Positions 5,772 to 61,900 of a stretch of DNA of 64,000 nucleotides are shown piece by piece (position 1 is the first letter of the stretch; each line of letters opens with the position of its first letter). The translations under genes were made by a program, and so were the position numbers. The notes beneath the pieces were generated by a model. That model saw only the letters and a list, made by a program, of their open reading frames with translations, was not told where the DNA came from and did no database searches. Origin of the DNA: Tabrizicola sp. (GTDB lineage: Bacteria > Pseudomonadota > Alphaproteobacteria > Rhodobacterales > Rhodobacteraceae); assembly GCF_030373185.1 (NCBI RefSeq), contig NZ_JAUCZH010000006.1, positions 124,001 to 188,000 of the forward strand, given 5' to 3'.

Positions 5772-5813
5772 GGGATGCATGCCGCCCATTTTGTCCCTAA
5801 CTTCCTCTCTGCG

Positions 5814-5852: not shown

Positions 5853-5879
5853 CGCACCGACAGCCGGAAAGACCACGCC

Positions 5880-7118
5880 ATGAAACTGAAGCACCTCGAA
5901 ATCTTCATCGTCGCGCCGCCCTTTCCGGGTTGGGGCGGCCGCTACTGGATCTTCCCCAAGCTGACCACCGATACCGGGATCGTCGGCTACGGCGAATGCT
6001 ACGCCTCCACCGTTGGCCCCAAGGCCATGCAGGCTGTCATCGAAGACGTGTTCGAACGCCACATGCTCGGCGAAAACCCCGAAAACATCGAACTGATGTT
6101 CCGCCGCGCCTACTCCTCCGGCTTCACCCAGCGGCCTGATCCCACCGTGATGGGCGCATTTTCCGGGCTGGAGATTGCGTGCTGGGACATCCTCGGCAAG
6201 GCCCGCAACCGCCCGGTCTGGGCGCTTCTGGGCGGCAAGATCAACGAGCGGATCCGCAGCTACACTTACCTCTACCCGGCGCCGGGACAGGAATCGGCCG
6301 AATTCTGGGTTGATCCCGACGCTGCCGCCGCCGCAGCCGTCCGCTTCATGAACGCGGGCTTCACCGCGGTGAAGTTTGACCCCGCCGGCCCCTATACCAT
6401 TCGCGGCGGCCACGAACCCGCCATGTCCGACATCACCCGCAGCGTCGCCTTCTGCAAGGCGATCCGCGAAGCGGTGGGCGACCGGGTCGACCTTCTCTTC
6501 GGCACCCATGGCCAGTTCTCCACCCCCGGCGCCATCCGCATGGGCCGCGAGTTGGAACCCTACAACCCGCTCTGGTACGAAGAACCGATCCCGCCAGACA
6601 ACTTCCTGGAGTTTGCCGAGGTCGCCAAATCCGTCCGCGTCCCCCTCGCCACTGGCGAACGCATGACGACCAAGGCCGAATTCGGCACCCTTCTCCGCGC
6701 CGGCGGCGTCAAGATCCTGCAACCGGCGCTGGGCCGGGTGGGCGGCATCTGGGAGGCCAAGAAGATCGCGGCCATGGCCGAGATCTTCAACGCCCAGATG
6801 GCCCCGCATCTTTACGCCGGTCCCGTCGAATGGGCGGCCAACGTTCACTTCGCCGCCTCGATCCCGAACCTTCTGATCGCTGAGACGATCGAAACCGGCG
6901 GTGCCTTCCACCTGAAGCTGATCAAGAACTCGATCAAATGGGAAGACGGCTACATCATCCCGCCCGACGCCCCCGGCCTTGGCATCGAGTTTGATGAAGA
7001 CCTCGCCCGCGCGCATCCCTTCACCGGCACCGGGTTGCACCTTCAGATGCAAGAGGCACCTTGCGACTATCGCCACGGCAACCGCTTCGAAGGCGGCGCG
7101 CCGTCAGCGAAGACCTGA
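5880..7118 (+). CDS. enolase-superfamily (mandelate racemase/muconate lactonizing) sugar-acid dehydratase-like protein
   Basis: The 412-residue protein has the N-terminal capping domain and the C-terminal barrel of the MR/MLE family and is closest in layout to galactonate dehydratase. It shows GLEIACWDILGKA, LEPYNPLWYEEPIPP (Glu ligand), PLATGER (Glu ligand), GGVKILQP and APH near residue 315. The third-strand motif that should supply an Asp ligand (DxHG) reads FGTHGQ, so that ligand is Gly while the catalytic His is kept. The start ATG has no strong SD. A sugar-acid dehydratase or isomerase role is likely; the substrate is not known. Confidence 0.85.
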   Translation: MKLKHLEIFIVAPPFPGWGGRYWIFPKLTTDTGIVGYGECYASTVGPKAMQAVIEDVFERHMLGENPENIELMFRRAYSSGFTQRPDPTVMGAFSGLEIACWDILGKARNRPVWALLGGKINERIRSYTYLYPAPGQESAEFWVDPDAAAAAAVRFMNAGFTAVKFDPAGPYTIRGGHEPAMSDITRSVAFCKAIREAVGDRVDLLFGTHGQFSTPGAIRMGRELEPYNPLWYEEPIPPDNFLEFAEVAKSVRVPLATGERMTTKAEFGTLLRAGGVKILQPALGRVGGIWEAKKIAAMAEIFNAQMAPHLYAGPVEWAANVHFAASIPNLLIAETIETGGAFHLKLIKNSIKWEDGYIIPPDAPGLGIEFDEDLARAHPFTGTGLHLQMQEAPCDYRHGNRFEGGAPSAKT

Positions 7119-7191
7119 CGGCAAGGCTGGCCGTGGCAACGCCGTCCGAATGGGCTCGATGCCCATGAGGACGGCGGCACTTTCGGGAAAG

Positions 7192-7268
7192 TGGCGGGCC
7201 CGGAAGGAATCGAACCCTCAACCTCGGACTTAGAAGGTCCTTGCTCTATCCAGTTGAGCTACGGGCCC
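7192..7268 (-). tRNA. tRNA-Arg (anticodon TCT)
   Basis: The reverse strand folds into a full cloverleaf. The acceptor arms are GGGCCCG and CGGGCCC with discriminator G and an encoded CCA. The anticodon loop is CTTCTAA, giving anticodon TCT (reads AGA). The T-loop is GGTTCGATTCC. The gene is 77 nt including CCA. Confidence 0.96.
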
Positions 7269-7300
7269 GCGCGATGCCTCTTTTGCGGCAAGGCCAAAGG

Positions 7301-7765
7301 TCAGGCAAGTATCTTTGTCATGAAGACCGAATTCGGGTCGTCCCAATACCCCTCGAACGGCGGGCAGTCCACGAAGCCGGCCCGCGCATACAGGGCGCGG
7401 GCGGCGACAAAGGTGGGCTGCACGCCGGTCTCCAGGCTCAGCCTTGCAAACCCGTCCGCCCGGGCCTCGGCCAGCAGATGGTCCAGCATCGCCTTGGAAA
7501 GCCCGCGCCCCCGTGCCTCGACCAGCACATGCATCGACTTGATTTCGGCGTGACCCGCGTCAATCCGCTTGAACGCCCCCATCGCCAGGGCCGCACCGTC
7601 TTCGCGCAGCACGAAGAACCGGATACCGGGGGCCGCCAACGCGCCCTTGTCCATCATGTGAATCGATTCCGGCGGGGTGTCGGCGTGCATGTCTGCCGTG
7701 TGGCGCTGGAACAAAAGCTCCAGGTCGGGGGTCAACGGGTGTTCTTCGGTGATCAGGAACGCCAT
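7301..7765 (-). CDS. GNAT family N-acetyltransferase
   Basis: The 154-residue protein carries a GNAT domain. IKSMHVLVEARGRGLSKAML contains the acetyl-CoA pyrophosphate-binding R-G-x-G/S segment (near residue 85), and ARALYARAGFVDCPPFEGY is the usual C-terminal motif B of small GNATs acting on free amino acids or small molecules. The ATG at 7765 lies one base after the stop of the complex I subunit gene, so it is probably translated by coupling; no clear SD precedes it. The acyl acceptor is unknown. Confidence 0.85.
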   Translation of the reverse strand: MAFLITEEHPLTPDLELLFQRHTADMHADTPPESIHMMDKGALAAPGIRFFVLREDGAALAMGAFKRIDAGHAEIKSMHVLVEARGRGLSKAMLDHLLAEARADGFARLSLETGVQPTFVAARALYARAGFVDCPPFEGYWDDPNSVFMTKILA

Positions 7766-7766
7766 G

Positions 7767-8078
7767 TCAGTGGGTCCAGACACCCCTGCGGTCGGTTGCG
7801 AAGTTTTCGCCATAACCGCGTGGCCGGATAATCGCACGGCGCGGTTTCGGGTCTTGCACGTCCGCCTCGATGCCCTTTTCCGCCGCGTAGGCCAGCGCCG
7901 CCTCCCGGCTGTCAAAGCGCAAGCGAACCTGCGCCTGAGTGTCCGAGGAAGACGTCCAGCCCATCAGCGGGTCAACCTCGCGTTCAGAGGCCGGTGCAAA
8001 TTCCAGCACCCATTGCTGGGTCTTGGCGGTCCCCGACTGCATGGCGGTTCTGGCTGGCTGATAGATACGAGCACGCAT
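7767..8078 (-). CDS. ETC complex I subunit, NDUFS4 family
   Basis: The 103-residue protein begins [16 protein letters not shown] and contains [37 protein letters not shown] and ends with [12 protein letters not shown]. This matches the NDUFS4 (18-kDa/AQDQ) accessory subunit of NADH:ubiquinone oxidoreductase that alphaproteobacteria share with mitochondria. It sits at the peripheral arm near the NADH-oxidising module. The start at 8078 has a GGGAG Shine-Dalgarno. It lies apart from any nuo operon, and it is followed one base later by the GNAT gene. Confidence 0.92.
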
Positions 8079-8335
8079 CGCAAAACTCCCGGCGTTTGGG
8101 ACGTTATCGATAAGGTTTCGGTAAAGCGCAAGCACGACCTTCAGTCGCAAAAGACTGTCGGCTGATCTTGGGGTGTGGGTGGGGTGGGGTAAGACCAGCC
8201 GACAGCTTCAGTTGCTGCTTGCCCGACCAAGCTGCCCGAAGCGCCAGCAAAATGCAACCATAAGATGAATGAAGAGATTAAAAAACACCCAAGAATGAAA
8301 TCTGCGGCTGTCTTCCGCAACCCGGTTCGCCATCG

Positions 8336-9193
8336 TCAGCCCTTCTGCACCAGCCGCAAGATCAAGTAGTGGTTGAACTTCCGGAACACTTCGGCCGAGC
8401 GCGTGGTTTCTGTCAGGCGCTGCATCAGGTTGCGCCGGCGCTTGCGCGACAGGAACAGCGCCACCAGCTTTGACAAGGCCCAATGGGCCGCAGGTTTGCT
8501 TTCATGGATCGCGTCACTGACCCGGGTCAGGCCGTGACCGATCACGTTGAACAAACCCTGCTCCAGATCGATCGAGGGGGCCACGGCGTCGGTAATCTCT
8601 TCCTCGGCCGCGACCGTGAAGTCAGACTCCGCCAGCGCGGCACGGAACGCTGCCAGCGGGTGTCCGCCCCCCGGCTGGGGTCCGTGGGCAGACCGGCTGC
8701 GGTAAGCGGCGCTGCGAAAGCAGTCGGCAATCAGCACCTGCCCCCCGGGGGCCAGCAGGCGGGCGCATTTCGGCAGGCTTTCGGCAAAGGGAATATACTG
8801 AAAACTTTCGGAAAACAGACACAGATCAAACGGCCCGGCTCCGGCAAAGTCTTCAAAGGTGCATTCATGAACCACCGCACCCGGCGCATTTTCCCGGCAG
8901 CGCGCCGCCAGAAACGCCGATGGTACCACGATCTCGACCTTGTGGCCCAGCGCGAGGAGTTTCTTCGCCGTCTCGCCCGCGCCGCCACCGATGTCCAGTA
9001 TCCGCAGTGGCCCTTCCGGCAGGTAGCCGAACAGCTTGACCGTATAGGCATCCTGCGCCGTCCTCAGGTTGCCTGCCGTCACCTCAAGCCCGGTCCAAAG
9101 CCCGTAATGCAGGTTTTCCGCCCCGGTCAGCCAGCGGATGAACGCCAGCCCCACATCCAGCCCCACGGCCCGCGTGTCGATCTTGTCAGCCAT
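8336..9193 (-). CDS. class I SAM-dependent methyltransferase
   Basis: The 285-residue protein has a Rossmann methyltransferase core: motif I LDIGGGAGETAKKLLALGH (near residue 80), motif post-I VEIVVPSAFL, motif II FDLCLFSESFQYIP and ARLLAPGGQVLIADCFR. The C-terminal part is helical and basic (FLSRKRRRNLMQRL). The start at 9193 is preceded by AAGAGGTG; a longer frame from 9229 lacks an SD. It resembles small-molecule or lipid methyltransferases. The substrate is unknown and the neighbours do not help. Confidence 0.85.
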   Translation of the reverse strand: MADKIDTRAVGLDVGLAFIRWLTGAENLHYGLWTGLEVTAGNLRTAQDAYTVKLFGYLPEGPLRILDIGGGAGETAKKLLALGHKVEIVVPSAFLAARCRENAPGAVVHECTFEDFAGAGPFDLCLFSESFQYIPFAESLPKCARLLAPGGQVLIADCFRSAAYRSRSAHGPQPGGGHPLAAFRAALAESDFTVAAEEEITDAVAPSIDLEQGLFNVIGHGLTRVSDAIHESKPAAHWALSKLVALFLSRKRRRNLMQRLTETTRSAEVFRKFNHYLILRLVQKG

Positions 9194-9376
9194 CTTGCAC
9201 CTCTTGGGCGCGAGCCTTAGCCGCTTCACCGCCTGTCGGCAACGGTTTCACCCCCCTTGGCGTGCCATCCGAAGGATCTGCGCTTGAATTGGAACAAAAA
9301 CGGATCAAATCTAGCAGGCCGCGAGTCGCCCGCCGCGACGCCCAAGCCTTTCCCCAGTCTGGAAGCAGTCCGCGCC

Positions 9377-11563
9377 ATGCCGCACAACAATTCCAACGCC
9401 ATCGCTGAACGCCCCGACGTGCTGACCCGGCCCAAGCTGGAGGGCGGGCGCCGCTTCACCCTTTCAACCCCGTTTCAGCCCGCAGGCGACCAGCCGACCG
9501 CGATTGCCGAACTGACGGCGGGGGTGTTGGCAGGCGAACGCAATCAGGTGCTTTTGGGCGCGACCGGAACCGGCAAGACCTTCACCATGGCCAAGGTGAT
9601 CGAACAGACCCAGCGCCCGGCCATCATCCTTGCACCGAACAAGACGCTTGCCGCGCAATTGTATGGGGAATTCAAGGGCTTCTTCCCTGATAACGCAGTG
9701 GAATACTTCGTCAGCTACTATGACTACTACCAGCCCGAGGCCTATGTGGCGCGGACCGATACCTATATCGAGAAGGAATCCCAGATCAACGAACAGATCG
9801 ACCGGATGCGCCACTCGGCCACCCGGGCGCTTCTGGAACGTGACGACGTGATCATCGTGGCCTCGGTCTCCTGCATCTACGGCATCGGGTCGGTGGAAAC
9901 CTATTCGGCCATGACGCAAGACCTTGTGGTCGGCCAGATGTATGACCAGCGCCGGGTGATCGCTGAACTGGTCGCCCAGCAATACAAACGGCTGGAGGCC
10001 TCGTTCCAGCGGGGTGCCTTCCGGGTGCGGGGCGACAGCCTGGAGGTCTGGCCCGCCCACCTTGAAGACCGCGCGTGGCGCTTTTCCTTCTTTGGCGAGG
10101 AACTGGAATCGATCACCGAATTCGACCCTCTGACCGGTGCCAAGACCGACAATTTCAAGCAGATCCGGCTTTACGCCAACAGCCACTACGTCACCCCGCG
10201 CCCCACGCTGGCGCAGGCGACCAAGGGCATCAAGGAAGAGCTTTTCCACCGCCTGAAACAGCTCACCGGCGAAGGGAAACTGCTGGAAGCCCAACGCCTT
10301 GAACAGCGCACCAACTTTGATCTTGAAATGCTTGAAGCCACCGGCGCCTGCGCCGGGATTGAAAACTACTCGCGCTATCTGACAGGCCGCGCGCCGGGCG
10401 AACCGCCGCCGACGCTGTTCGAATTCATCCCCGATAACGCCATCGTCTTCGCCGACGAATCCCATGTCTCGGTCCCCCAGATCGGCGGCATGTTCAAGGG
10501 TGACTTCCGCCGCAAGCTGACGCTGGCTGAACACGGGTTCCGCCTGCCCAGCTGCATGGACAACCGGCCCCTGAAGTTTGAAGAATGGGACGCGATGCGC
10601 CCGCAATCCGTCTTCGTCTCCGCCACCCCCGCGGCTTGGGAGATGGAACAGACCGGCGGCGTCTTCACTGAACAGGTCATCCGCCCCACCGGCCTGATCG
10701 ACCCGCAGGTCGAAATCCGGCCGGTGGAAATGCAGGTCGACGACCTCCTGGACGAGATCCGCAAGGTCGCCGCCCGTGGCCTGCGCACCCTTGCCACGGT
10801 CCTGACCAAGCGCATGGCCGAGGATCTGACTGATTACCTGCACGAACAGGGCATCCGCGTGCGCTACATGCACAGCGACATCGACACGATCGAACGCATT
10901 GAAATCCTGCGGGATTTGCGGCTGGGGGCATTTGACGTGCTGGTCGGCATCAACCTTCTGCGCGAAGGTCTGGATATTCCCGAATGTGGTCTTGTGGCGA
11001 TCCTGGACGCTGACAAGGAAGGCTTCCTGCGGTCTGAAACCAGCCTTATCCAGACCATCGGTCGCGCCGCCCGCAACTCGGAAGGCAGGGTGATCATGTA
11101 TGCCGACCGGATGACCGGCAGCATGGAACGCGCCATCGGGGAAACCAACCGGCGCCGCGAAAAGCAGGTTGCCTACAACCTGAAACATGGCATCACCCCG
11201 GAGACCGTCAAGAAGAACGTCGAGGATGTTCTCTTTGGCCTCTGGGAAGGTGACACCGATCAGGCACGGATCACGACGAAGATTGACAAGCCCATGGTCG
11301 GCTCGAACCTCGCCGCGCATCTGGACGCGCTGCGGCTGGCCATGCGCAAGGCCGCCGAAAACCTCGAATTCGAGGAAGCCGCCCGCCTGCGCGATGAGGT
11401 GAAGCGGCTGGAAGCGGTGGAGCTTGCGGTGGCCGACGACCCCTTCGCCCGGCAAGAGGTGATCGAGGAGGCGGTTGAAGAGGCGGTGAAGATGGCTGGC
11501 CGGTCCACGGCGGGACGGGCGGGGCAGAGGGGTGGGAAGCGAAGCAGGGGGCGGGGACGCTAG
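9377..11563 (+). CDS. uvrB: UvrB, nucleotide excision repair subunit B
   Basis: UvrB binds UvrA and damaged DNA, then recruits UvrC. The product shows the Walker A GATGTGKT, the damage-inserting beta-hairpin region [11 protein letters not shown], the helicase motif [14 protein letters not shown], the motif VI region [19 protein letters not shown] and a C-terminal UVR (UvrC-binding) coiled coil [17 protein letters not shown]. The length of 728 residues fits. The ATG at 9377 is preceded by GGAAG; a frame open from 9257 gives an unlikely extension. A basic Gly/Arg tail (about residues 708-728) ends the protein. Its stop overlaps the convergent NYN gene by 4 bases. Confidence 0.97.
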
Positions 11564-52425: not shown

Positions 52426-53448
52426 TCAGTCAATGTGCCAGCGGTTCAGAAAGGCCGTGGCATTGTGCTGGATATAGTCGATCTGCACCTTGTCATCCGT
52501 GTCGCCCTTCCAGAACTGGCCATCAGCATACCAGCCAAGCTGAAGCGCCATGTTCTCGGCCGCTGTCTGCAAGGCGGCAGCGCGCAAGGCAGGGGGAAAG
52601 CGGCCCGGCCACTGGTCGCAAAGCCCGACGAACCGGGTCAGCGCCTCGGACCGGCAGGCGATGGGCGTGGACATGCGCCGCCTGCGATAGGCGTCATCCT
52701 CGATCATGGCGGTGATCAGGTCGGTGAGGTAGCCGGTCAGGCGCCCAGCATCGATCAACCCGCGCGCTGCCGCTTCGCAGGCGGCATAGGCCATCCAGTG
52801 ACTTTGTTCCGCCACGCCGTAGCGCCGGGCGATCAGGGCTTCGGTCGTGGCCAGAAGCCTTGGGTCAGAGCAGCCGGTGACGAACAGGCCCAGCAGAACC
52901 TCGCCGGTATAAAAGGCGCTGCGGAACGGCAAAACCGTGCCATCCGTGATCAGCCGTTTGTGCAGGAAGTCGTTGTCGGCAATCTGGACCAGCGCATAGG
53001 TCTGCAAGCGGGGGATCATTTCCTCCGGCCCCGGCAACCCGGCCGCGGGCAACCCGTGCTGACAGGCGCGGCGGTATTCTTCCAGCATCACCAGAGCCAG
53101 CCCGATGCCTCCGGTCTTGACCGCCCCCTTGGTGACAAGCGCGAGGCTTGGCTCGGAAATCCACAAGGGGCGCTCGAACTTGCCCGTGGCATAGGCGACG
53201 GCCCGGTCAAGTGCCGCGCGTCCGGCCGGAGCAAGCGGCAGCGCCAGTTCGTTCAAGGCCCGCAGCATGAACCACAAAGTCCCGCAATGGCGCAGCATGT
53301 TGTAGCCGTCCAGCATCACATCGGGCCGACCGGCGCGATGGGCATAGACGAAGCGCCCGTTGTCCCGGACAAGGCCCAAGAGATGCGCGAAGCTGGCCTC
53401 GACGACGCCGCGGCAATGCGATCGGGTCTGGGTCTTGGGCGCCATCAT
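52426..53448 (-). CDS. unknown protein, possibly (alpha/alpha)6-barrel
   Basis: The 340-residue protein is mostly helical, with VMLDGYNMLRHCGTLWFMLRALNE, PFRSAFYTGEVLLGLFVTG and FWKGDTDDKVQIDYIQHNATAFLNRW. Repeated helix pairs of this kind suggest an alpha/alpha toroid like glycan-processing or epimerase enzymes, without clear acidic catalytic motifs. No signal peptide is seen. Its stop abuts the LuxR gene stop directly, convergent. No function is assigned. It is the last host gene before the integrated element. Confidence 0.78.
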   Translation of the reverse strand: MMAPKTQTRSHCRGVVEASFAHLLGLVRDNGRFVYAHRAGRPDVMLDGYNMLRHCGTLWFMLRALNELALPLAPAGRAALDRAVAYATGKFERPLWISEPSLALVTKGAVKTGGIGLALVMLEEYRRACQHGLPAAGLPGPEEMIPRLQTYALVQIADNDFLHKRLITDGTVLPFRSAFYTGEVLLGLFVTGCSDPRLLATTEALIARRYGVAEQSHWMAYAACEAAARGLIDAGRLTGYLTDLITAMIEDDAYRRRRMSTPIACRSEALTRFVGLCDQWPGRFPPALRAAALQTAAENMALQLGWYADGQFWKGDTDDKVQIDYIQHNATAFLNRWHID

Positions 53449-53585
53449 TCGGCCTCTCTACCGGACGCAGTCTTGTGGGTCCGATGAAAAATTGTCAAAT
53501 CATCCAAAATGCTGGCGGGGTCTTTCGGCCCCCGGCAAAGCCGCTATGCTGCGCCCGATGACCGACCCTTTGACCAGCCTCGCAA

Positions 53586-53623
53586 GCCCGCGTGGTGGAA
53601 CGGTAGACACAGGGGACTTAAAA
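53586..53623 (+). pseudogene. 5' half of tRNA-Leu(TAA), displaced by integration (left end)
   Basis: These 38 bases begin GCCCGCGTGGTGGAACGG and end in GGACTTAAAA, equal to the first 38 bases of the intact tRNA at 61682 except for C53601 against T61697. After A53623 the sequence diverges (GAGTCTGG). The 22 identical bases 53602-53623 mark the left attachment core. The host tRNA promoter should still lie upstream and would now transcribe a tRNA half. Confidence 0.9.
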
Positions 53624-53738
53624 GAGTCTGGTAGGCATTGATAAAAAACAAGATTCTTCTGTCAGTAGACGAAAAGCAGACAGATGAGCCTCTGAGGCCA
53701 GTATATATAGTGACTGTGGGACTGACTGAGGGCCTAAG

Positions 53739-53978
53739 TTACCGCCCAATCTGCCTCTTAGCTTCTTGCTCCTCGTGCCACTCCTTCACCAGCTTGCAGA
53801 ACTCGCCGATCCACGGAGACCAGATAACCTGCTCTGTCTCCCCAAGAGGGATGAAGCCCGGATGGTCTTCGGGATCAAGAACCCACGTTCCGATGATCTC
53901 CCCGTCCTTGGTGATAACATCGCCGCTTAGCTTTTCCCTGTCGCCGTAACCGTCCAGTATCACATGCCAATGGTCCAT
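53739..53978 (-). CDS. small acidic protein of the element, unknown
   Basis: The 79-residue acidic product (MDHWHVILDGYGDREKLSGD, WVLDPEDHPGFIPLG) has no recognised domain. Its GGAGAAG SD is good. It reads leftwards towards the left attachment end, so it is the outermost gene on that side. No transmembrane helix or Cys motif is present. A role in host interference is possible but unsupported. Confidence 0.65.
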   Translation of the reverse strand: MDHWHVILDGYGDREKLSGDVITKDGEIIGTWVLDPEDHPGFIPLGETEQVIWSPWIGEFCKLVKEWHEEQEAKRQIGR

Positions 53979-54131
53979 GAGTTTCTTCTCCTGCTACCAG
54001 AGGTTGCAACTTACCAGAGGTAAGGCGAGGAGGGCCAGAGCTACAGACCATCTCATCTGCTTAGGGTTCTTCAAGTTGACTGATCGGCAGGCCGGTGAGA
54101 GGCTTCATCAAAGCTGGCCGAGGAGACTTAC

Positions 54132-54719
54132 GTGACAACCAGTGCTGTAAGCGAAGTCTATAGGAATGTGCATGTCTTCCTACTCGTGGATTCCGCTGAA
54201 GTCCGAGTTGTGGCAATGGTTCCTCAGTCCGAAAATTGGTTTATGATTGCTGAGGAGAAGCTAATCTATAGCAGAACCTTCAATAGCGAAAGTGAGGCAG
54301 AGCAGTTCCTGAAAGAAAATGAACTTCCATACGCTACCTGTCAGTTAGAATCTGTTTCGTCACAAGTACTATATGCAAAGAAGGGATATCACAAGGAATC
54401 TGAGTTCACTTCCAAGTATCTATGTAAGGTAGTACTAAACTACAATCAGCGGGAGCCAAAGTTCAGAACAAAGAAAGAATCCCAGATTTATCACAGCGGA
54501 TACCATCCTAGGAAGGTTATTGCAATTGAAAGTAACGTAGCGGTAGGATCACCAAGCGAGGTGGAGATATACATGAGTAAGGTATCGCAAAGGTACCCGA
54601 ACTTCATACCACCTATCGAGGAAAAGATGCTTTCGCCTTTGAAGGGCAAAATCGGAGACTATCTGCCCTACGCACTTGCAGTCCTCGCAATCGGCTTTCT
54701 AATCGGAACGAACTGGTGA
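54132..54719 (+). CDS. tail-anchored membrane protein of the element, unknown
   Basis: The 195-residue product starts at GTG 54132 with a GAGGAGAC SD. It has a soluble alpha/beta N-terminal part (VHVFLLVDSAEVRVVAMVPQ) and a C-terminal hydrophobic helix (YLPYALAVLAIGFLIGTNW), so it looks like a tail-anchored inner-membrane protein. It is one of few plus-strand genes in the element and is convergent to the helicase gene. It has no recognised family. Confidence 0.72.
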   Translation: MTTSAVSEVYRNVHVFLLVDSAEVRVVAMVPQSENWFMIAEEKLIYSRTFNSESEAEQFLKENELPYATCQLESVSSQVLYAKKGYHKESEFTSKYLCKVVLNYNQREPKFRTKKESQIYHSGYHPRKVIAIESNVAVGSPSEVEIYMSKVSQRYPNFIPPIEEKMLSPLKGKIGDYLPYALAVLAIGFLIGTNW

Positions 54720-54741
54720 TAAAATTAGCGAGCAAAAAGAA

Positions 54742-54769
54742 AAGCCCCATGGAGGCGACCACAGGGCTT
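54742..54769 (-). terminator. terminator after the element helicase gene
   Basis: AAGCCC (54742-54747) pairs with GGGCTT (54764-54769) around a 16-base loop; on the reverse strand it is followed by TTCTTTTTGC, fitting termination of the leftward element operon. Confidence 0.65.
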
Positions 54770-54794
54770 AAGCAGTAAGTCAGGCTTTGGGGAC

Positions 54795-56057
54795 TTACGC
54801 CGCTAGGAGCGTAACAGCATCATCAAGTTGACTATCGTTAACGAACTCGTCAGCGAAGCTGACAGCCTCTTCCTTATTGTCTAGGAAGTCCTCAAGCAAT
54901 GCCTTCATCCTAGGTGAAGCAAGGTAGAGAGACACATAGTCACCCTCTCTAAGCCTAGACCTCATCACCCACTGTATTAGCTCACTTAAGGCCCACTGGT
55001 CCTCCTGTTCCTTGTTCCATCCTAACCATTCCTTCTCGGCAGGATTAAGCCTAAGGTCATTGAGGTAAAGGGCATGGCTACAGTGCCGATATTTGTTGGT
55101 TCCTCTGGTAGTCTTGGGAAGGAAGTTGCATAGACTAAGCTTGCTGCCCTGAGCAAATAGACCCTTGGGCTGGTCGTTCTGGGAATGCCATTTGGATTTG
55201 TTGCAAGACAGCATTATGTTCTCAGCTTCTACTCCCTTAAGCTCCCTGCCTCTCAGGTTCATCAGGGCAGTAGAAACCTTCTTGGCTCCTTCCTTCCTCA
55301 TCTTCTCTTGGGCTGTATGGGTCATCTGAGTATCCCGAAGGGCAGGGATATCCTTGACCTCTAGTCTTTGTCGTAATCCATGCTTGAAAGCTGAATCATC
55401 CGACCTGTCGATTCTGAAAGGAATCCCAAGCCTCCGAAGGTATCCCACCATCTGACTGCTTTCAGCTTGGTAGGTTAAGACAGTACAGCTTAAAGGACTG
55501 GTGAACAGTTCCACCGGCACAATCGAGACAAAGAATCCCTTGCCTTCTACCTTATACAAGCTCCCCTGCTTGGCTTTCTGATACAGGTCATTGCGTACAG
55601 TAGGGGCTAGCTTCTCTGCCTCTTGGCTATGGGTAATCCACTTGGCAGTAGGAGTAACTCTACCAGTGCAAGGATCGACTACCGCATAGCCTTCTCCGAT
55701 ATAGACCTTCTCAAACACTTCTTCCTTTACGCCATGAATGCTTTCAACACAGTCAAAGACCTCATCAATCAGGACGTGGTACTCACTGAGGTCTGTTCTG
55801 TCCAAGTCCACTAGGTCGAATAGCTTGTGAGTGCAGACTATGTTGTTACCCTCTAGAACATTCTCCCTCAGCCAGTCTGACTTGTTGCTGTCGTCTGGTG
55901 CTGCCTCTAATGGTATTCCGGCCTGATTTTTCCACCTGTCTACCTCAGACAAGAAGGGGACTACGATTAGGTACTGTCGCCTAGGGTCAAGTGATGCAAT
56001 CTGCTCTGTGGTCTTTCCTGCTCCACAAGGCTTATCAATAAATCGAATATCAGTCAA
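54795..56057 (-). CDS. SF2 helicase-like ATPase of the element
   Basis: The product (about 420 residues) has Walker A FIDKPCGAGKTTEQIASL near residue 12, motif Ia YLIVVPFLSEVDRW, NIVCTHKLFD, a motif II LIDEVFD, TVLTYQAESSQMVGYL and a motif VI-like ELIQWVMRSRLREGDYVSLYL. This is the layout of phage-type DEAD-like replication helicases, with DEVF in place of DEAD. The start is uncertain: TTG at 56057 has GGAG at good spacing, while TTG at 56069 extends it by four residues. It is the best candidate for element replication. Confidence 0.8.
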   Translation of the reverse strand: MTDIRFIDKPCGAGKTTEQIASLDPRRQYLIVVPFLSEVDRWKNQAGIPLEAAPDDSNKSDWLRENVLEGNNIVCTHKLFDLVDLDRTDLSEYHVLIDEVFDCVESIHGVKEEVFEKVYIGEGYAVVDPCTGRVTPTAKWITHSQEAEKLAPTVRNDLYQKAKQGSLYKVEGKGFFVSIVPVELFTSPLSCTVLTYQAESSQMVGYLRRLGIPFRIDRSDDSAFKHGLRQRLEVKDIPALRDTQMTHTAQEKMRKEGAKKVSTALMNLRGRELKGVEAENIMLSCNKSKWHSQNDQPKGLFAQGSKLSLCNFLPKTTRGTNKYRHCSHALYLNDLRLNPAEKEWLGWNKEQEDQWALSELIQWVMRSRLREGDYVSLYLASPRMKALLEDFLDNKEEAVSFADEFVNDSQLDDAVTLLAA

Positions 56058-56171
56058 AATATGCTCCAAGAAATATGCTGCTGGTGAAATGGGGGGTAGG
56101 GTAGCCTAAATTGGGGAGAATAGGCCCAGTAAAATAAGGCGAAAAACTCCCCAACTTTTAGCTATCGGGTA

Positions 56172-56648
56172 CTACCCTACCTGAAGCTCCCCAACTTGCA
56201 CTTTTGGGGCCTCTGGTGAAGCCTTTTGGAGATAGGTCTTAGCCTGATCCAGCGTAGGGAATTGCTTCTCTAGCTTCTTGCCATTGACCTGCTTTCGTAC
56301 TCTCCAAGCTCCCTTGTGGTAGTCGATCCCCTTGGGGACTACTGCCTCTGGCTCTTGGTGTTTGAGCTTCTCTCGATACTCGTAGTCTTCTTCTACCAGA
56401 GTAGCCAATACCCTAGCTTGGAAAGGGGAAAGAGAGACGCCTTGCAGCTTGCTACGCAGGTATTCCCCTGCTCTGCGTTGCTTGTCCTTTTGGGCTAGCT
56501 CTTGCAGGTCAAGCTCTGGGATGAGACTGGCCAGTATGGCAACGTCACCAAAGAGGCTATCTGCGGCCCTGTGGGGTGATTGCGTAGGGGTGGAAGTGAT
56601 GAAAGGTAATTCAGAATAAAGGGACAAAGATAAATCGACGTTAGGCAA
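56172..56648 (-). CDS. AP2-like DNA-binding protein of the element
   Basis: The 158-residue product is charged and helical in the middle (QELAQKDKQRRAGEYLRSKL) and has a C-terminal AP2/integrase-type segment, GIDYHKGAWRVRKQVNGKKL then EKQFPTLDQAKTYLQKA. Such domains bind DNA in phage and mobile-element proteins. The start is a TTG at 56648 that overlaps the previous gene. It is next to the helicase, so it may bind the replication origin. The fold assignment is moderate. Confidence 0.66.
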   Translation of the reverse strand: MPNVDLSLSLYSELPFITSTPTQSPHRAADSLFGDVAILASLIPELDLQELAQKDKQRRAGEYLRSKLQGVSLSPFQARVLATLVEEDYEYREKLKHQEPEAVVPKGIDYHKGAWRVRKQVNGKKLEKQFPTLDQAKTYLQKASPEAPKVQVGELQVG

Positions 56649-56928
56649 CGAGAGGTAACTCCTTTCTCATAAGTTGATTGACAAACATTGCTGCATCTAG
56701 AGGAGACTTGAATCCTTCCCCTCTACCGTTGAGCAGGAACCTGTCCTGAGGTCCTAGGAACTTTACCAACATCAGGGACCAGAGTTGCTTTCTGTCCTTG
56801 CTGACAATGGTGTAGGTCTGAGGCTTCCGATACTCCGTCGCAGTCTTGTAGTCCCGTTTACATCGGGAAGTTAGGTTAACAGAGTCTTCGTATAGGAGGA
56901 CGTGGGATAATTCAGCAATCAATTTCAT
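56641..56928 (-). CDS. small basic protein of the element, unknown
   Basis: The 95-residue product (MKLIAELSHVLLYEDSVNLT, YTIVSKDRKQLWSLML, GEGFKSPLDAAMFVNQLM) has a good AGGAAA SD. Its C-terminal G-x-x-F-x-S-x(3)-A-A pattern also appears in the product of 56941, which may be a distant paralogue. It overlaps the AP2-like gene by 8 bases. No known family is recognised. Confidence 0.7.
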   Translation of the reverse strand: MKLIAELSHVLLYEDSVNLTSRCKRDYKTATEYRKPQTYTIVSKDRKQLWSLMLVKFLGPQDRFLLNGRGEGFKSPLDAAMFVNQLMRKELPLVA

Positions 56929-56940
56929 TTTCCTGAATCC

Positions 56941-57267
56941 TTATTTACTCAAGTACTCGTCAAGAGCCTTAGCGGCAATGAATGCTGAGGTGAATCTGTG
57001 ACCTTCAAAGGGAGCGAAGTCAGTAATGACATAGGTGAGGCTATGCTCTTGTGTTCCTCTCTTGATGTAATACGTTGTCTCGTCCTTGTCCTTTAAGACA
57101 GCGAACCACTTTGTTTCCTTTCTAGCCATGCCAGAAGAAAAATCTTCAAAGAGGGTCAGATTGGGATATGAGTACGCAAGGTATTCCTCTTTTGCGACCC
57201 TGTTAGCCTGAGGGTGATCATCTACATTGATTGACGTAATGGGTTGCTTGGTTTTAATCGCTGGCAT
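56941..57267 (-). CDS. small protein of the element, unknown
   Basis: The 108-residue product (MPAIKTKQPITSINVDDHPQ, KWFAVLKDKDETTYYIKRG, GHRFTSAFIAAKALDEYL) has an AAGGAGAA SD and lies 12 bases before the 56641-56928 gene. Its C-terminal helix-forming pattern resembles that protein. It is soluble, and no cysteine or metal motif is visible. A regulatory or DNA-associated role is possible but unsupported. Confidence 0.7.
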   Translation of the reverse strand: MPAIKTKQPITSINVDDHPQANRVAKEEYLAYSYPNLTLFEDFSSGMARKETKWFAVLKDKDETTYYIKRGTQEHSLTYVITDFAPFEGHRFTSAFIAAKALDEYLSK

Positions 57268-57277
57268 TCTGTTCTCC

Positions 57278-57700
57278 TTATGCTGCCTTGATAAATTTGG
57301 TAGTACTGAGCTTGGCAATATTAGTAAGTTGCTCAGTGGGTCTAATGGTCTTGGTGGAACGGTTGTACTTAATAAGATTTTTCTCTGCTAGCTTGTCCAG
57401 GTACTCGATCCAGATAGCTGAGTAGCCCTGCTTGATCCAATCCATCCCGTTACGGATATTGACCTTGGTAACCTCATCTTCATCGACAAAGCGGATTAGG
57501 GCGGCTACGAACTTCCTTTGATTGCTGCCGTGCATACCTGCTCTAATGGTTGGCAATACGCCTTCCAGCTTCAGAGCTTCCTCCAGATTATTGATACGCG
57601 CAACGTTCCAAGGGTCATCAAAGTCCCAAGTTGCTACGCTTCCGATGAAACACCAGAAGGTATTCATAGGCTCATCCTTCTCTAAAAATATTCTTGCCAT
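57278..57700 (-). CDS. protein of unknown function of the element
   Basis: The 140-residue product starts MARIFLEKDEPMNTFWCFIG and ends in a basic tail (NRSTKTIRPTEQLTNIAKLS). It is mostly helical, with VDEDEVTKVNIRNGMDWIKQG and AIWIEYLDKLAEKNLIKYN. The ATG at 57700 has a GGAG SD. The last part looks like a winged-helix-type segment (YLDKLAEKNLIKYNRSTKTI), so DNA binding is possible. No family was recognised. Confidence 0.68.
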   Translation of the reverse strand: MARIFLEKDEPMNTFWCFIGSVATWDFDDPWNVARINNLEEALKLEGVLPTIRAGMHGSNQRKFVAALIRFVDEDEVTKVNIRNGMDWIKQGYSAIWIEYLDKLAEKNLIKYNRSTKTIRPTEQLTNIAKLSTTKFIKAA

Positions 57701-57705
57701 AGTGG

Positions 57706-57978
57706 TTACTCCGAACCGTAAAAAGCTTCTCGACCAAGTAGACCAAAGTCTCTCTGGACCTGCTCTTGAACCTTGCGACTGCGGTAGATCGTATCTCCGA
57801 CCCTCTTGCGGTAGCTCATCCATTGCGCAAAGGTTCTTGGCCGGTCGGAGCTATGTAGACCAATACGCTCAGCCTCAGCAGACTTTGAAGGCTCTTTCTT
57901 ATCAAGCTGAGCCTTAAGCAAAGCAAGCTCTGAGCGCAGTGCTTCCAGTTCATTAGTCTCATCCGAAAATAGTCCCAT
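57706..57978 (-). CDS. small coiled-coil protein, first gene of the leftward element operon
   Basis: The 90-residue product starts MGLFSDETNELEALRSELAL and holds a heptad-rich helix (residues 10-35), then a basic segment (FAQWMSYRKRVGDTIYRSRK). The SD is AAAGGAT with long spacing. It is the first gene of the leftward run 57978 to 54795, just downstream of the structured non-coding region. It may be a regulator or replication accessory; this is inference. Confidence 0.65.
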   Translation of the reverse strand: MGLFSDETNELEALRSELALLKAQLDKKEPSKSAEAERIGLHSSDRPRTFAQWMSYRKRVGDTIYRSRKVQEQVQRDFGLLGREAFYGSE

Positions 57979-58286
57979 AAAAATATCCTTTCTAAAGTGT
58001 TGGGAGATAGAAGTGGGCTGATAGCCAGAGAACAGGTAATTCTGTTTCAAACTTCTATAATACTAGTTTGACACATTTTTACTGATTTGTCAAGCTTAAT
58101 TAGCGTTCGGTTTGTAATAGAATTGCTAAAGCATTGCAATAGAACGAAAAGAATATTTGGAAGTTTCCTTAATAATTTTTATGCTTGAGCGACAAGGATG
58201 AGGCTAGAAGGTTGTGCCTGAGTGGCTCTAAAGCAGGCTAATAAAACCCATACCGGTTTCACGACCCTCAAAAAGCCCTTATTTTA

Positions 58287-58315
58287 TTGGTCGAAATGGA
58301 CCCCCTCCGTATAAT
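58287..58315 (+). promoter_or_regulatory. candidate plus-strand promoter in the non-coding region
   Basis: TTGGTC (58287-58292) and a perfect TATAAT (58310-58315) stand 17 bases apart, a near-consensus sigma-70 promoter. It would transcribe rightwards into the structured region, where no gene starts, so an antisense or non-coding RNA is possible. Confidence 0.5.
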
Positions 58316-58746
58316 CTTTACTAGGTATGAGGGTGGTTGGAGGTTGGCCCTTTAACCCAGCCGTAAAGGCTGTCATTTGGATAGTGATCTAACGGGGTAT
58401 CAGACAACAGGGATGCTCCCGGCTGGTCTTAAATGCTCACCTTCAGGAAAGCCAAGAGACAGATCATGGACAGAAGGCTAACAGGCATAGACAAGAGTGT
58501 TGAGCTAAAGTAGGCTTAAGCTGTTGTTCTTATTATCCTAAAGGGCTATTATTTGACAAAAGGTAATACTAGAAGTATCCCTAGTTGCCTTGAGTTACTT
58601 CGTATTTCATTCCACTAATTCTTACAGAAGCTGCCTCAAGGCCCTCTTAAGGTATATACTTTATGCTACTACGTAGGTTGGTATCTTTTATTCTTACGAA
58701 GCTATCATAAAGCTAAGTGGTACCCTTAAGCAGTTCCCCTATGTTT

Positions 58747-58809
58747 CTGTCGAGTAATGCTGCGTAGCAACAGCCTTCGGCTGTCGAGTAGGCGGAGCCT
58801 ACGCTCTCG
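58747..58809. repeat. cluster of small hairpins with a direct repeat
   Basis: CTGTCGAGTA occurs twice (58747-58756 and 58781-58790), and CTCTCGAC closes the cluster. Inside lie TGCT-GCGT-AGCA (58758-58769), CAGCC-TTC-GGCTG (58771-58783) and GTAGGC-GGA-GCCTAC (58788-58802). The layout resembles a structured RNA or a recombination/replication site. Confidence 0.6.
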
Positions 58810-59048
58810 ACGTATAGTCTGATAGTAGTAACTCTTCTACTAATGAAATAAACGGAATCTACTTCCGAAGGAACTAGAGGTGAGCATCAAGCTACTACCT
58901 CTTAGTATACTTATAGGGTGAATCCACGGAGAGGGGCCAAAGAGGCCCGTACAGCGTAGCTAACTCCGTGGGCGGTCCCCGGTGGAAAACCAAGAGAAGG
59001 GCCTCTAGCGCCTCTCCTATGAAGCCTGAGGGCATACCAAAGAAAAGA

Positions 59049-59066
59049 CCCCCGGTGAAGGGGGCC
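59049..59066 (-). terminator. terminator of the rightmost leftward operon
   Basis: CCCCC (59049-59053) pairs with GGGGG (59060-59064) around GGTGAA; the reverse strand continues TCTTTTCTTT. It ends transcription from the integrase/recombinase side, just before the structured region. Confidence 0.6.
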
Positions 59067-59094
59067 TGATGCAAGCTAACGGTGATCGAAAGGA

Positions 59095-59556
59095 TCAGTT
59101 GTCCAGGTCTTTGACCCAGAGGTAGGCAGTGGGGTTCTTCGGAGACTTCCCCTTGCTGGTGTCCTTCACGGTAGCCTCGATGTGTCCGCTGGCAAGCAGG
59201 TCCTTGAGGTGCTTCTGCATGGTCTGGTGCCTGCTTTGCTCGTAGCCAAGACCATCAAATATTTCTGTCTGGCTCTGCTGATCGGCCTTCTTGCCCTTAA
59301 GGAAGGCCAGCATATCCTTCTGAGCCTCAAGAATGTCTGTTTCTGACATCTGTTTCCTGTTGCCAGTGCTGCCTGTGGTGGTCCTAGCTGCTGGTGCGTT
59401 GCCCTCTCTGAGCGAGTAGGAGAAACCAAGCTCTTTCCCCAGCTCATTCAGCTCAGCTACAGCTTTCTCTGCTGCGGCCAGCAGTACCGCCTTAGCCTCC
59501 TTCACCAACTCTGCTCGTTGCTTCTCTAGGTCTCTGATTTGATCAAGTACAGACAT
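59095..59556 (-). CDS. coiled-coil plus winged-helix-like protein of the element
   Basis: The 153-residue product has an N-terminal amphipathic coiled coil (LEKQRAELVKEAKAVLLAAA and AVAELNELGKELG), a flexible Thr/Ser/Gly linker (residues 56-72) and a C-terminal alpha-helical domain ending QTMQKHLKDLLASGHIEATV, like a winged helix. The build recalls H-NS-type silencers, but no H-NS DNA-binding motif is seen. It is well expressed by its GGAGG SD. It may repress element genes. Confidence 0.6.
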   Translation of the reverse strand: MSVLDQIRDLEKQRAELVKEAKAVLLAAAEKAVAELNELGKELGFSYSLREGNAPAARTTTGSTGNRKQMSETDILEAQKDMLAFLKGKKADQQSQTEIFDGLGYEQSRHQTMQKHLKDLLASGHIEATVKDTSKGKSPKNPTAYLWVKDLDN

Positions 59557-59577
59557 TCATTCCTCCTATGGTTACAG

Positions 59578-60114
59578 CTATGACAGATACCGGTAGACAG
59601 TCTGTCGGGTTACGTCAAGTTTCCTAGCAATATCCGATATGCTAAGCCCATCCTGCTTGAGCTGATCTACCTCCTGCTTGGTGACGCTAGGCTTCCTGCC
59701 ACGGTAGACACCCTTAAGCTTGGCCTTCGCTATGCCTTCCTTCTGTCGTTCCCTGATCAATGCCCTTTCAAACTCTGCCACAGCCCCAAGTACTTGGAGA
59801 TACAGGGTACTTGCAGGATTGGAGTTGTCAGGGCTGAAGGTGAGGCCATCCTTAACAAAGACAATGGTTACCTTCTTGCGAAGGAAGCCCTGCACCAGTT
59901 CAAGTAGGTCTTGAAGGTTCCTAGCCAGCCTGTCGATTGACCAGACCTTGATTGTATCCCCTTCCCGTACCCACTCAATCAGGTCAGTTAAGCCCTGTCT
60001 GTCCTTAGTGCCTGCTGATGCCTTGTCCTCAAACACCTTGTCGCATGGTCCTAGGTCCTGTCGGTCTAGGGATTGGTCTTCTGATGATACCCTTCGGTAG
60101 CTTACTGTAGCCAT
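59578..60114 (-). CDS. small serine recombinase (resolvase/invertase type)
   Basis: The 178-residue protein has a resolvase domain with the nucleophile Ser in YRRVSSEDQSLDRQ near residue 10, the KVWSIDRLARNLQDLLELV Arg region and AEFERALIRERQKEGI at the domain end. A C-terminal HTH follows (ISDIARKLDVTRQTVYRYLS). It is the size of Tn3-type resolvases and Hin-type invertases. It may resolve multimers of the excised form or invert a segment. The SD is AGGAAGC. Confidence 0.93.
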   Translation of the reverse strand: MATVSYRRVSSEDQSLDRQDLGPCDKVFEDKASAGTKDRQGLTDLIEWVREGDTIKVWSIDRLARNLQDLLELVQGFLRKKVTIVFVKDGLTFSPDNSNPASTLYLQVLGAVAEFERALIRERQKEGIAKAKLKGVYRGRKPSVTKQEVDQLKQDGLSISDIARKLDVTRQTVYRYLS

Positions 60115-60416
60115 AATGCTTCCTTTCGTATGGTTAGGGTCTAGAGTATCATTCAGCTAGTGTAACATATAGCATAAGTCAACCCTATCGTTACACTTTA
60201 GTCTAGCCTAATGCGTGTAATGTTTGAGTACACCCTAAGGTTACGCATTGAGCAAGCCTCACGCTACAGCCCCATGCCTGTCAGCTAGGGGTCATTCCCC
60301 CACTGAATGAATGAAGGGCCTAAGTCTTCTAGGCAAATCTTGATGGGGGCCTACAAGGGGGGGGCTGGGGGTACTCCTTCTTAAGAGAAATACCCCCCGA
60401 AACTATCTCTGGAAAA
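60115..60416. promoter_or_regulatory. recombinase promoter and possible recombination site
   Basis: This AT-rich stretch between integrase and recombinase holds an inverted repeat AGTGTAAC/GTTACACT (60159-60166 and 60190-60197) and a looser pair ATGCGTGTAA/TTACGCAT (60211-60248). Such paired sites are typical of resolvase res sites and autoregulated promoters. No gene is seen. Confidence 0.5.
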
Positions 60417-61586
60417 TTACCGCAGTTTAAGACCAGCGTCCCTAAGCATCTGTAGCACTGCCTCAGCGTCTAGAACCTCTTCCCCGACTATCCCTGTCTC
60501 TCCCTCCATGTAGGCAAGGTACTGCTTGGAGACAGTCTTGAGACACTGGGTCAGGATCATCTTCTTAGCCAGACCACCACCCAGATAGCTTGTTCTAGTC
60601 ACCCCGATGGGAGTATGGTTCAGAGCTATGCCAATGGCCCCTACATCAACACCAGCTAGCTGAGCATGTTCTGCAAAGGTCCGTCTAAGGTCATGCACTG
60701 TCCAAGGCTGCTTGAAGCCTAGAGCCTCTCTGGCCTTGTCTAGCTCGTTCCTCCACTGAGTATCCGTGTAGACAAAGGGACCGTGGTTTGCCTCGATCAG
60801 CCCTACAATCGGTATCGTATGGTCCTTGCCTGACTTGGTGTTCTTGAAGGTCAGTTGGTCCCCATGAACCTCGAAGTTCAGAGCTTCATTCTTCCTGCAT
60901 CCGGTGCAGAGGTAGAACATCAGGAGCTTCCCGAAGGGTTCCTTCTCTGCGTATTCCATCACCTTCACGATTTCATCGTCTGACAGATACCGTGTCTTGG
61001 CGCTGGAGCTAGTCCTAAGCCCACCTTTCTTCATAGCTCTGTTGACTGGGTTAGGAGCAATGCCAGCAGAGTTGAGGATCGCCTTAAGGGTCCGCATGGC
61101 CTTATTGGTGTAGTCCTCGGAATGCTTGTCCCTGAGTAGGGCATACCGGAGAGCCACCATCTTGTCGGTTATGTCTGTGGCCTTCAAAGGAAGCCAATCG
61201 CTGAAGCAGTTCTGCATCACCTTCTGGTAGTCGGCCACCGTGCTAGGCTTGAGCTTGTGCCTTCTTAGGGCAAGGTACTGGGTCAAATGGCTTTGCAGGC
61301 TGTCTTCGTCTTCTGGCTCTACCCTAGCAACGTCTATCCCTTTGGAGAGTTGCAGCAGCACTTCCCTAGCTTCCTCTCTGGCCTGATCCAGCGGAAGCAA
61401 GCTCACTTCACCGATGGTCTTCCTGACCACCCGACCACCCTTGATACGCTTCTCTGCGATGTATGTAGCCCTGCCAGCCTCAGAGACCTTCACCCCGAAG
61501 CCTATCAGCTTGGTATCTCTGACAAACTGGACCTTCCCACTGGCTTTCAGTCCTGACAAAGTGTCTTTGGTGATCTTGGTGAGCAT
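60417..61586 (-). CDS. int: tyrosine integrase of the element
   Basis: The 389-residue integrase has an N-terminal DUF4102-like arm-binding domain (residues 1-85), a SAM-like core-binding domain (about 95-190) and a catalytic domain. That domain shows YLCTGCRKNEALNFE (Arg near residue 231), TKSGKDHTIPIVG (Lys), VHDLRRTFAEHA (His-x-x-Arg), ALNHTP (His) and TSYLGG, a possible Tyr region. It lies 95 bases from the tRNA-Leu and points away from it, as expected for site-specific integration there. Confidence 0.95.
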   Translation of the reverse strand: MLTKITKDTLSGLKASGKVQFVRDTKLIGFGVKVSEAGRATYIAEKRIKGGRVVRKTIGEVSLLPLDQAREEAREVLLQLSKGIDVARVEPEDEDSLQSHLTQYLALRRHKLKPSTVADYQKVMQNCFSDWLPLKATDITDKMVALRYALLRDKHSEDYTNKAMRTLKAILNSAGIAPNPVNRAMKKGGLRTSSSAKTRYLSDDEIVKVMEYAEKEPFGKLLMFYLCTGCRKNEALNFEVHGDQLTFKNTKSGKDHTIPIVGLIEANHGPFVYTDTQWRNELDKAREALGFKQPWTVHDLRRTFAEHAQLAGVDVGAIGIALNHTPIGVTRTSYLGGGLAKKMILTQCLKTVSKQYLAYMEGETGIVGEEVLDAEAVLQMLRDAGLKLR

Positions 61587-61681
61587 GGAAAAATCCCCTG
61601 CGGCAGTCCGGTAGACGGTAGACAGACTAGCAGACAGGGAAGCGGAAGGATAGAGTCTCGTAAGTATTTAAAAAGACTAAT

Positions 61682-61767
61682 GCCCGCGTGGTGGAATGGT
61701 AGACACAGGGGACTTAAAATCCCTCGGCTGAAAGGCCATGCCGGTTCAAATCCGGCCGCGGGCACCA
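61682..61767 (+). tRNA. tRNA-Leu (anticodon TAA), attachment target
   Basis: The cloverleaf has acceptor arms GCCCGCG and CGCGGGC, discriminator A and an encoded CCA. The anticodon loop CTTAAAA gives TAA (reads UUA), and a long variable arm (CTCGGCTGAAAGGCCATG) marks tRNA-Leu. It is 86 nt. The first 38 bases repeat the remnant at 53586, with one change (T61697). Its promoter must now lie in the element (61587-61681). Confidence 0.95.
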
Positions 61768-61900
61768 GAAAATCTGCAAAGACATTTTAAAACATAGGCT
61801 TGTGTACTTTCAAGAACCCCGATCCTTCAGGAAAGGACAGTTCGGGTAAACCTGATCAGCCCTGTCGGGGATCAAGGCCGGGCTTTTCTGCGTGCCGTTG

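Follow-up and report, generated by a model that had tools for sequence, protein, structure and literature searches.

Analysis of a 64,000-nt stretch of the Tabrizicola sp. genome (contig NZ_JAUCZH010000006.1, positions 124,001 to 188,000; the window) revealed an 8.1-kb integrative element, at 53586..61767 of the window, that carries the 5′ half of its own target, the transfer RNA (tRNA) gene tRNA-Leu(TAA). We are highly confident in an explanation in which the element entered at the anticodon loop by means of its own integrase, belongs to an integrase clade that uses tRNA 5′ halves, now drives the tRNA from element DNA, and can restore the host gene upon excision. Comparison across genomes shows that this integrase clade, found here only in one bacterial family, acts in this way at both tRNA-Leu(TAA) and tRNA-Leu(CAA). 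The window element is a real and well-resolved member of a rare known kind, and it says less by itself than the wider group to which it belongs.

The only tRNA-Leu(TAA) in the window was called by ARAGORN at 61682-61767 on the plus strand, and a repeat search of the window recovered its first 38 nt again at 53586-53623 (97% identical, spacing 8096 bp). The repeat begins exactly at tRNA base 1 and ends with the last base of the anticodon loop; its sole mismatch falls at tRNA base 16 (C on the left, T on the right), and the following 22 nt are identical. Both searches agree with the initial annotation, made from the sequence alone, which had described a complete tRNA-Leu at the right, a 38-base 5′ half with one mismatch at the left and a 22-bp identical core ending in the anticodon loop. 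Because the repeat starts at tRNA base 1, and because a 38-39 nt unit that stops at the identical base delimits five further elements whose integrases are related, chance can be ruled out as its source.

This arrangement corresponds to an integrative element targeted to a tRNA gene (tDNA), with an intact tDNA and a same-orientation cognate fragment at the ends and a tyrosine integrase inside. The fragment is a 5′ one lying upstream of the intact tDNA, which places the element in the 5′-fragment subtype. Pfam analysis revealed both the arm-binding and the catalytic domain in the integrase, and G+C is 0.486 within the element versus 0.636 in the 4 kb of left flank. The element does not qualify as a prophage, as no head, tail or packaging family was found among the 10 open reading frames (ORFs) scanned; the sole virion-like match among them was a weak terminase hit (E 0.0066) on the helix-turn-helix of the resolvase. 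Besides the rebuilt tRNA-Leu(TAA), ARAGORN called no tRNA gene in the element. Its features, with their strand, are as follows.

53522..53550, plus: native tRNA-Leu(TAA) promoter (CTTTCG, 16 nt, CTATGCT), now before the stranded half; matrix score 18.4
53586..53623, plus: stranded native 5′ half of tRNA-Leu(TAA), identified by the repeat and by genus loci; the left end of the element starts at 53624
53666..53683, plus: left-end arm-type site, TAGACG at 53666 and AGCAGACAG at 53675-53683, by motif reading
53739-53978, minus: likely ORF, the first at the left end, from the ORF list
54132..54719, plus: 195-aa ORF, no family above cut-off
54795..56069, minus: 424-aa protein, phrog_2467 (E 1.8e-33), with a P-loop-like N-terminus (GAGKTT) by eye
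56172..58050, minus: up to five small ORFs (158, 95, 125, 181 and 114 aa; the last two overlap), no family above cut-off
58051..59094, no strand: 1-kb stretch rich in predicted hairpins, in which no ORF of at least 60 aa is listed
59095..59556, minus: 153-aa ORF, without a Pfam match above cut-off, weakly matched by PADLOC to a CARF model (E 5.9e-05)
59578..60114, minus: serine recombinase of the resolvase/invertase kind (PF00239, E 4.2e-36; phrog_125)
60417..61586, minus: complete tyrosine integrase, 389 aa (PF13356 and PF00589 above cut-off; phrog_1)
61587..61681, no strand: 95 bp between integrase start and tRNA, likely site of the integrase promoter and the new tRNA promoter; no native-type promoter
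61610..61637, plus: right-end arm-type sites (GGTAGACGGTAGACAGACTAGCAGACAG), by motif reading
61682..61719, plus: element-borne 5′ half of tRNA-Leu(TAA), its 38-mer absent from the genus loci; crossover in the anticodon loop at 61713-61719
61720..61767, plus: native 3′ half of tRNA-Leu(TAA), from ARAGORN and genus loci

The search for empty sites in relatives proposed by the initial annotation yielded a locus with the whole tRNA-Leu(TAA) in 26 of 31 genomes from the same genus. At 14 of these loci, the tRNA comes just after the 340-aa gene that in the window stands in the left flank (52426-53448). One genome (G007) reproduces the window order of three left-side genes followed by the tRNA, namely the 340-aa gene and two that we take to encode CoA-transferase-like subunits; relative to G007, one extra 190-aa ORF lies between in the left flank of the window. 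The exact left 38-mer, with C at base 16, occurs in 5 of the 26 loci and the exact right 38-mer, with T, in none. Given these counts and the left-flank gene order, the left copy belongs to the host and the right one to the element, in keeping with the earlier claim that the element brought the 5′ half; as judged from the sequences, the stranded left half is the native one.

The empty-site match extends over the left side and the tRNA, with the right side unmatched. The gene after the window tRNA, presumably HAD-like, adjoins tRNA-Leu(TAA) in none of the 26 genus loci, and its counterpart in G007 lies on the same contig as the tRNA, far away. Downstream of the tRNA, G003 differs from G007, and the first downstream gene of G007 is found at none of the other 29 tRNA loci; because downstream genes differ between relatives, the right flank is variable and unconfirmed. 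At 61768-61900, the window tRNA joins a gene block, assumed here to be HAD-, IMPase- and ABC-like, that lies elsewhere in G007.

To place the element among its relatives, we searched the TAA 5′ half in 295 genomes of its family, which is Rhodobacteraceae in the wide sense, judged from genome names. Matches were found in 128, and a close same-strand pair was present in four genomes besides the window's (G561, G589, G567 and G677), with an integrase relative at the corresponding place in G561 and G589 and none in G567 or G677. A three-integrase alignment searched over 394 family genomes identified 24 genomes at E 1e-25 or better. Scanning genome contigs with this alignment returned Aestuariivita sp. 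MAG (metagenome-assembled genome) M30B59 (G561), Rhodobacteraceae bacterium HIMB11 (G589) and Thalassovita litoralis DSM 29506; a single-protein scan of genome contigs found no close relatives.

Six elements in six genera, three at tRNA-Leu(TAA) and three at tRNA-Leu(CAA), terminate on the far side in a stranded 5′ half. Repeat spacing is 8,096 bp in the window, 4,048 bp in G561 and 6,441 bp in G589 for the TAA elements, and 15,472 bp in G688, 4,113 bp in G651 and 13,896 bp in G460 (one mismatch) for the CAA elements. G800 and T. litoralis share the same right end, their far ends not being seen: no second repeat copy was found on the 16.5-kb G800 contig, whose integrase has an internal stop, and in T. 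litoralis the integrase frame runs for 125 aa and ends some 90 bp short of the contig's edge. In all eight cases the integrase starts 96-119 bp from the tRNA 5′ end, as estimated from alignments (96 bp in the window). Beyond the integrase, the six elements have little cargo in common; the window, G460 and G688 encode serine recombinases, and phrog_2467-like proteins were seen in the window and, with a weak match, in G651.

Some of these loci display features of their own. In the G561 element (L184 6062-10195), the clade integrase is broken by transposase genes that appear, by eye, to be of insertion sequence (IS) type, and the whole tRNA is still the element-side copy. The G688 element contains type IV-A-like CRISPR-Cas genes according to PADLOC (DinG/Csf4, Cas7, Cas5 and Cas6-like; L222 about 4600-9850), as well as an array of eight 28-nt repeats (L222 10483-10971). 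In G567 (L186, G567:C1:649000-659000), the native tRNA-Leu(TAA) is apparently split into stranded 5′ and 3′ halves about 1 kb apart, enclosing a distinct, complete tRNA-Leu(TAA) that shares 79% identity with that of the window over 82 nt (5012-5051, 5303-5389 and 5984-6038), an arrangement that resembles tRNA-dependent lysogeny. In G677 (L187, G677:C5:10000-20000; 4792-5003), a second TAA 5′ half stands 126 bp before the whole gene with no integrase, possibly as a scar of such an element; no TAGAC motif occurs in the 85 bp between the copies.

Phylogenetic analysis of the integrases started from 55 loci and retained 50, after removal of L118 (no match), L206 and L214 (broken) and L198 and L201 (partial); L008, L010, L014-L033, L121, L124-L126 and duplicates were left out of the tree. 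The five complete 5′-half integrases formed one clade with support of 100/100, and none of 500 label shuffles was as low. Together with 14 further rows, including four 3′-half relatives, they were split from the other 31 at 99/95 in the unrooted tree. A scan of 55 integrase loci, among them one outside the tree, found a whole tRNA nearby in only three (the window, L006 and L023). Among fifteen weaker integrase matches (L207-L221), no tRNA was called within 1.5 kb, tRNA fragments not being sought there.

Four relatives carry 3′ halves. In G557, the tRNA-Leu(CAA) gene is intact, and a 3′ half adjoins the integrase 10 kb away; L197, from a Pseudohongiella MAG, likewise shows a 3′ half next to its integrase, with the complete tRNA-Leu(TAA) gene at the other end; and in G791 (tRNA-Tyr) and L196 (probably tRNA-Phe) a 3′ half adjoins the integrase, as read by eye, with far ends not seen. 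A reading of G557 as a 5′-type case was rejected, since the ARAGORN call beside its integrase is a 3′ half after unrelated sequence and the intact gene lies 10 kb away, and it was placed in the 3′-half group. Integrase orientation relative to the tRNA is alike in the six elements and these four relatives, and only the tRNA half differs. The nearest relatives with a visible site have the same integrase orientation and a 3′ half; the direction of change, towards the 5′ half, is one that we infer.

Tandem GTAGAC-like motifs, read here as arm-type sites, were identified at the right end of all six elements, five with a step of 11 bp and the window element with one of 7 bp. Of the left ends, those of G589, G688 and G460 have tandem motifs, and those of the window element, G561 and G651 have single or scattered ones. 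The motif TAGAC, picked after the element ends had been viewed, occurs 24 times in the twelve 110-bp ends versus 3.06 expected (maximum 9 in 2000 first-order Markov resamplings), and at 0.07-0.31 per 110 bp inside the elements. Many other family integrases have different motifs with an 11-bp step.

Measured from the anticodon loop, the main arm pair lies at 91/102 to 114/125 bp in seven 5′-half cases and at 94/101 bp in the window, compared with 117/128, 128/139 (twice) and 133/144 bp in four 3′-half cases; extra arm copies lie 96 bp from the loop in G688 and G800 and 62 bp from it in G651 and T. litoralis. Because the 5′-half spacing is no longer than the 3′-half spacing, the tRNA half lies inside the normal arm-to-core spacer and does not lengthen it. 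In the sampled elements of the 5′-half clade, the tRNA half thus fills a spacer no longer than that of the 3′-half relatives.

Such motifs also raise the idea that the D-arm (GGTAGAC) serves the integrase as an arm-type site too, which would explain the choice of both the 5′ half and tRNA-Leu. Both target tRNAs have the 7-mer GGTAGAC in their D-arm, and several elements have it in arm sites. However, L196 and L197 likewise have GTAGAC arm sites, L196 at a different tRNA, and since both carry 3′ halves, the motif does not track the half switch. The D-arms of many tRNAs read GGTAGA, which also counts against the idea, and we regard it as doubtful.

To compare the two sides of the insertion, a promoter matrix (about CTTTCC, 16-17 nt, CTAWGGT) was built from 24 of the 26 native genus upstream regions. 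On the left flank of the window it scored 18.4, a value reached by none of 1000 first-order Markov resamplings; on 61587-61681 it scored -7.2, with 724 of 1000 resamplings as high. The native promoter stays with the 5′ fragment in the window, G561 and G589, the stranded side keeping a native-type promoter in G561 (0/300 as high) and G589 (4/300). The stranded sides of the CAA elements G688, G651 and G460 gave no clear match (41, 90 and 20/300) to a matrix not made for the CAA gene. On the element side of G561, G589, G688, G651, G460, G800 and T. litoralis, no match rose above resampled sequence (124 to 249/300 as high).

The best sigma-70 consensus match within 130 bp upstream of the rebuilt tRNA was 7/12. 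A plain sigma-70 scan found nothing on the left flank, and because the consensus also misses the native promoter, the poor element-side score is uninformative in this host. The initial annotation held that the tRNA is expressed from 61587-61681. The native promoter was indeed left behind, and no native-type promoter was found in that interval; the expression itself is argued from viability. Since the strain lives and no other source was seen, tRNA-Leu(TAA) is now probably driven from element DNA.

The same displacement could be viewed as a promoter trade, in which the element gains a host tRNA promoter for its left-end genes. In its favor, a native-type promoter points into the left end of three elements (window, G561 and G589), and ORFs on the plus strand are located close to that end in three (window, G589 and G688). 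Yet the first left-end ORFs point the opposite way in G561, G651 and G460, the first left-end ORF of the window element (53739-53978) is likely a minus-strand one, and the three CAA elements have no clear promoter match. We consider a promoter trade unlikely.

Beyond expression, the earlier reading proposed that the host is held to the element because its sole UUA-reading tRNA depends on it. The assembly contains 38 tRNA genes, with the Leu anticodons TAA, CAA, TAG, GAG and CAG once each, and a DNA search with the tRNA matched the stranded half and the TAA and CAA genes and nothing else. The check for a second UUA-reading tRNA-Leu therefore saw none, in an inventory that is incomplete (no Phe, Tyr, Trp or Ile genes). 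The part of the proposal concerning one TAA gene cut off from its native promoter stood, whereas the bond to the element was overstated. When the left flank, stranded half and native 3′ half were joined in silico, a normal tRNA-Leu(TAA) was obtained behind the native promoter, with 1 mismatch versus L035. Because the joined flanks restore the tRNA and its own promoter, exact excision should free the host and, on this reconstruction, be harmless to it. Addiction was rejected on this ground, the incomplete inventory also speaking against it, and we assign it a low probability. Inexact loss alone would hurt the host, as it would with 3′-half elements.

The non-syntenic right flank might suggest an ordinary gene duplication or an assembly chimera mimicking an element, which is very improbable given the integrase, the arm sites, the G+C drop and five parallel cases in other genera.

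Several observations weigh against the integrative explanation. A native-type promoter at the stranded half is clear in the three TAA elements only, and the searches found no clear promoter on the element side. The right flank is non-syntenic with relatives, and a rearrangement or an assembly join is possible there. Excision, transcription and a same-species empty site were not seen. Integrase orientation is not constant family-wide, since L006 (one of the other 31 rows of the tree) and L023 (outside the tree) have the tRNA turned with its 3′ end towards the integrase. The tree is long-branched and midpoint-rooted, with only five complete 5′-half integrases, the three partial or broken ones being excluded.

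Collectively, we favor a mechanism in which the 8.1-kb element used its own tyrosine integrase to insert at the anticodon loop of the sole tRNA-Leu(TAA) gene seen. Integration, as the sequence of the two ends shows, joined the element 5′ half to the native 3′ half and stranded the native 5′ half and its promoter at the far end. The tRNA would then be transcribed from element DNA, and exact excision would, as the joined flanks suggest, return the host gene together with its promoter.

A more speculative possibility, to which we attach little confidence, is that one integrase clade shifted its tRNA homology onto the integrase-side arm, away from the far side, while the arm-to-core spacing did not grow, that the new promoter overlaps or adjoins the recombination complex, and that integrase occupancy and excision are coupled to how much tRNA decoding UUA/UUG is supplied. 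The start of the rebuilt tRNA-Leu lies about 60-95 bp from the main arm sites and 31 bp from the extra copy in two elements. The half switch is open to stepwise study, as the closest site-visible relatives differ in tRNA half and share orientation and arm layout. These elements also represent natural cases of an apparently sole tRNA gene running from mobile-element DNA.

Among the remaining features of the window, the 424-aa protein has 20 phage records listed as relatives, one annotated as a helicase and the rest hypothetical. Besides itself, two relatives with about 40% identity were found among 385 class genomes; the three stretches fetched for it contained no tRNA, and the ORFs of two showed no similar element. 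In L070 (G249:C1:1418500-1438400), its relative is in two frames (7034-8179 and 8852-10146), with an ORF resembling, by eye, another tyrosine integrase and defence-like genes as neighbours. Neither the integrase nor the 424-aa protein had a close relative in viral contigs; among solved structures, three integrase chains match the window integrase, and nothing under E 0.9 was found for the 424-aa protein. The predicted hairpins of 58051-59094 include a tight group near 58750-58820, and an Rfam search of this stretch returned no family at gathering score and only two matches, with E above 2.

The statement in the initial annotation that most tRNA-targeting elements carry the 3′ half is in line with the Islander database, which has 3,760 islands with a 3′ tDNA fragment and 159 with a 5′ one, of 3,919 (PMC4383910). 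Its 5′-fragment islands share with the window element a tyrosine integrase, a tDNA target and an intact tDNA with a stranded 5′ fragment upstream; they differ in being database entries, for which the text consulted gives neither integrase clade nor arm geometry (PMC4383910). Within our own set, L197 and G557 share the integrase orientation, tandem arm sites 11 bp apart, the anticodon-loop crossover and tRNA-Leu, but carry the 3′ half, so their tRNA retains its upstream side. A literature search by title and abstract start, with subscription papers mostly outside its coverage, found no description of this integrase clade.

According to a review on archaeal elements, bacterial tRNA genes keep their original promoter after integration, with very few exceptions (PMC8371274), and the 5′-half clade is an exception to that rule. 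Archaeal pTN3-like integrases also use a tRNA 5′ half, in this case of tRNA-Leu, and likewise part the tRNA from its original promoter (PMC8371274, PMC5495485). Their integrase gene is disrupted on integration, whereas the 389-aa integrase of the window is whole. Phages with tRNA-dependent lysogeny resemble the window element in making host tRNA supply depend on mobile-element DNA; they supply a whole tRNA without rebuilding, whereas the window tRNA is rebuilt (PMC10865867).

T7-like cyanophages have 39-bp attP motifs that match the first half of tRNA-Leu and integrate, no stable lysogens having been found (PMC8776855). P-SSP7 and S-TIP37 share the tRNA-Leu 5′-half attP with the window element, and S-TIP37 integration needs int and attP; they differ in being phages of cyanobacteria with attP downstream of int (PMC8776855). 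The elements described here provide a comparison for these cyanophages with a 5′-half attP and no stable lysogens.

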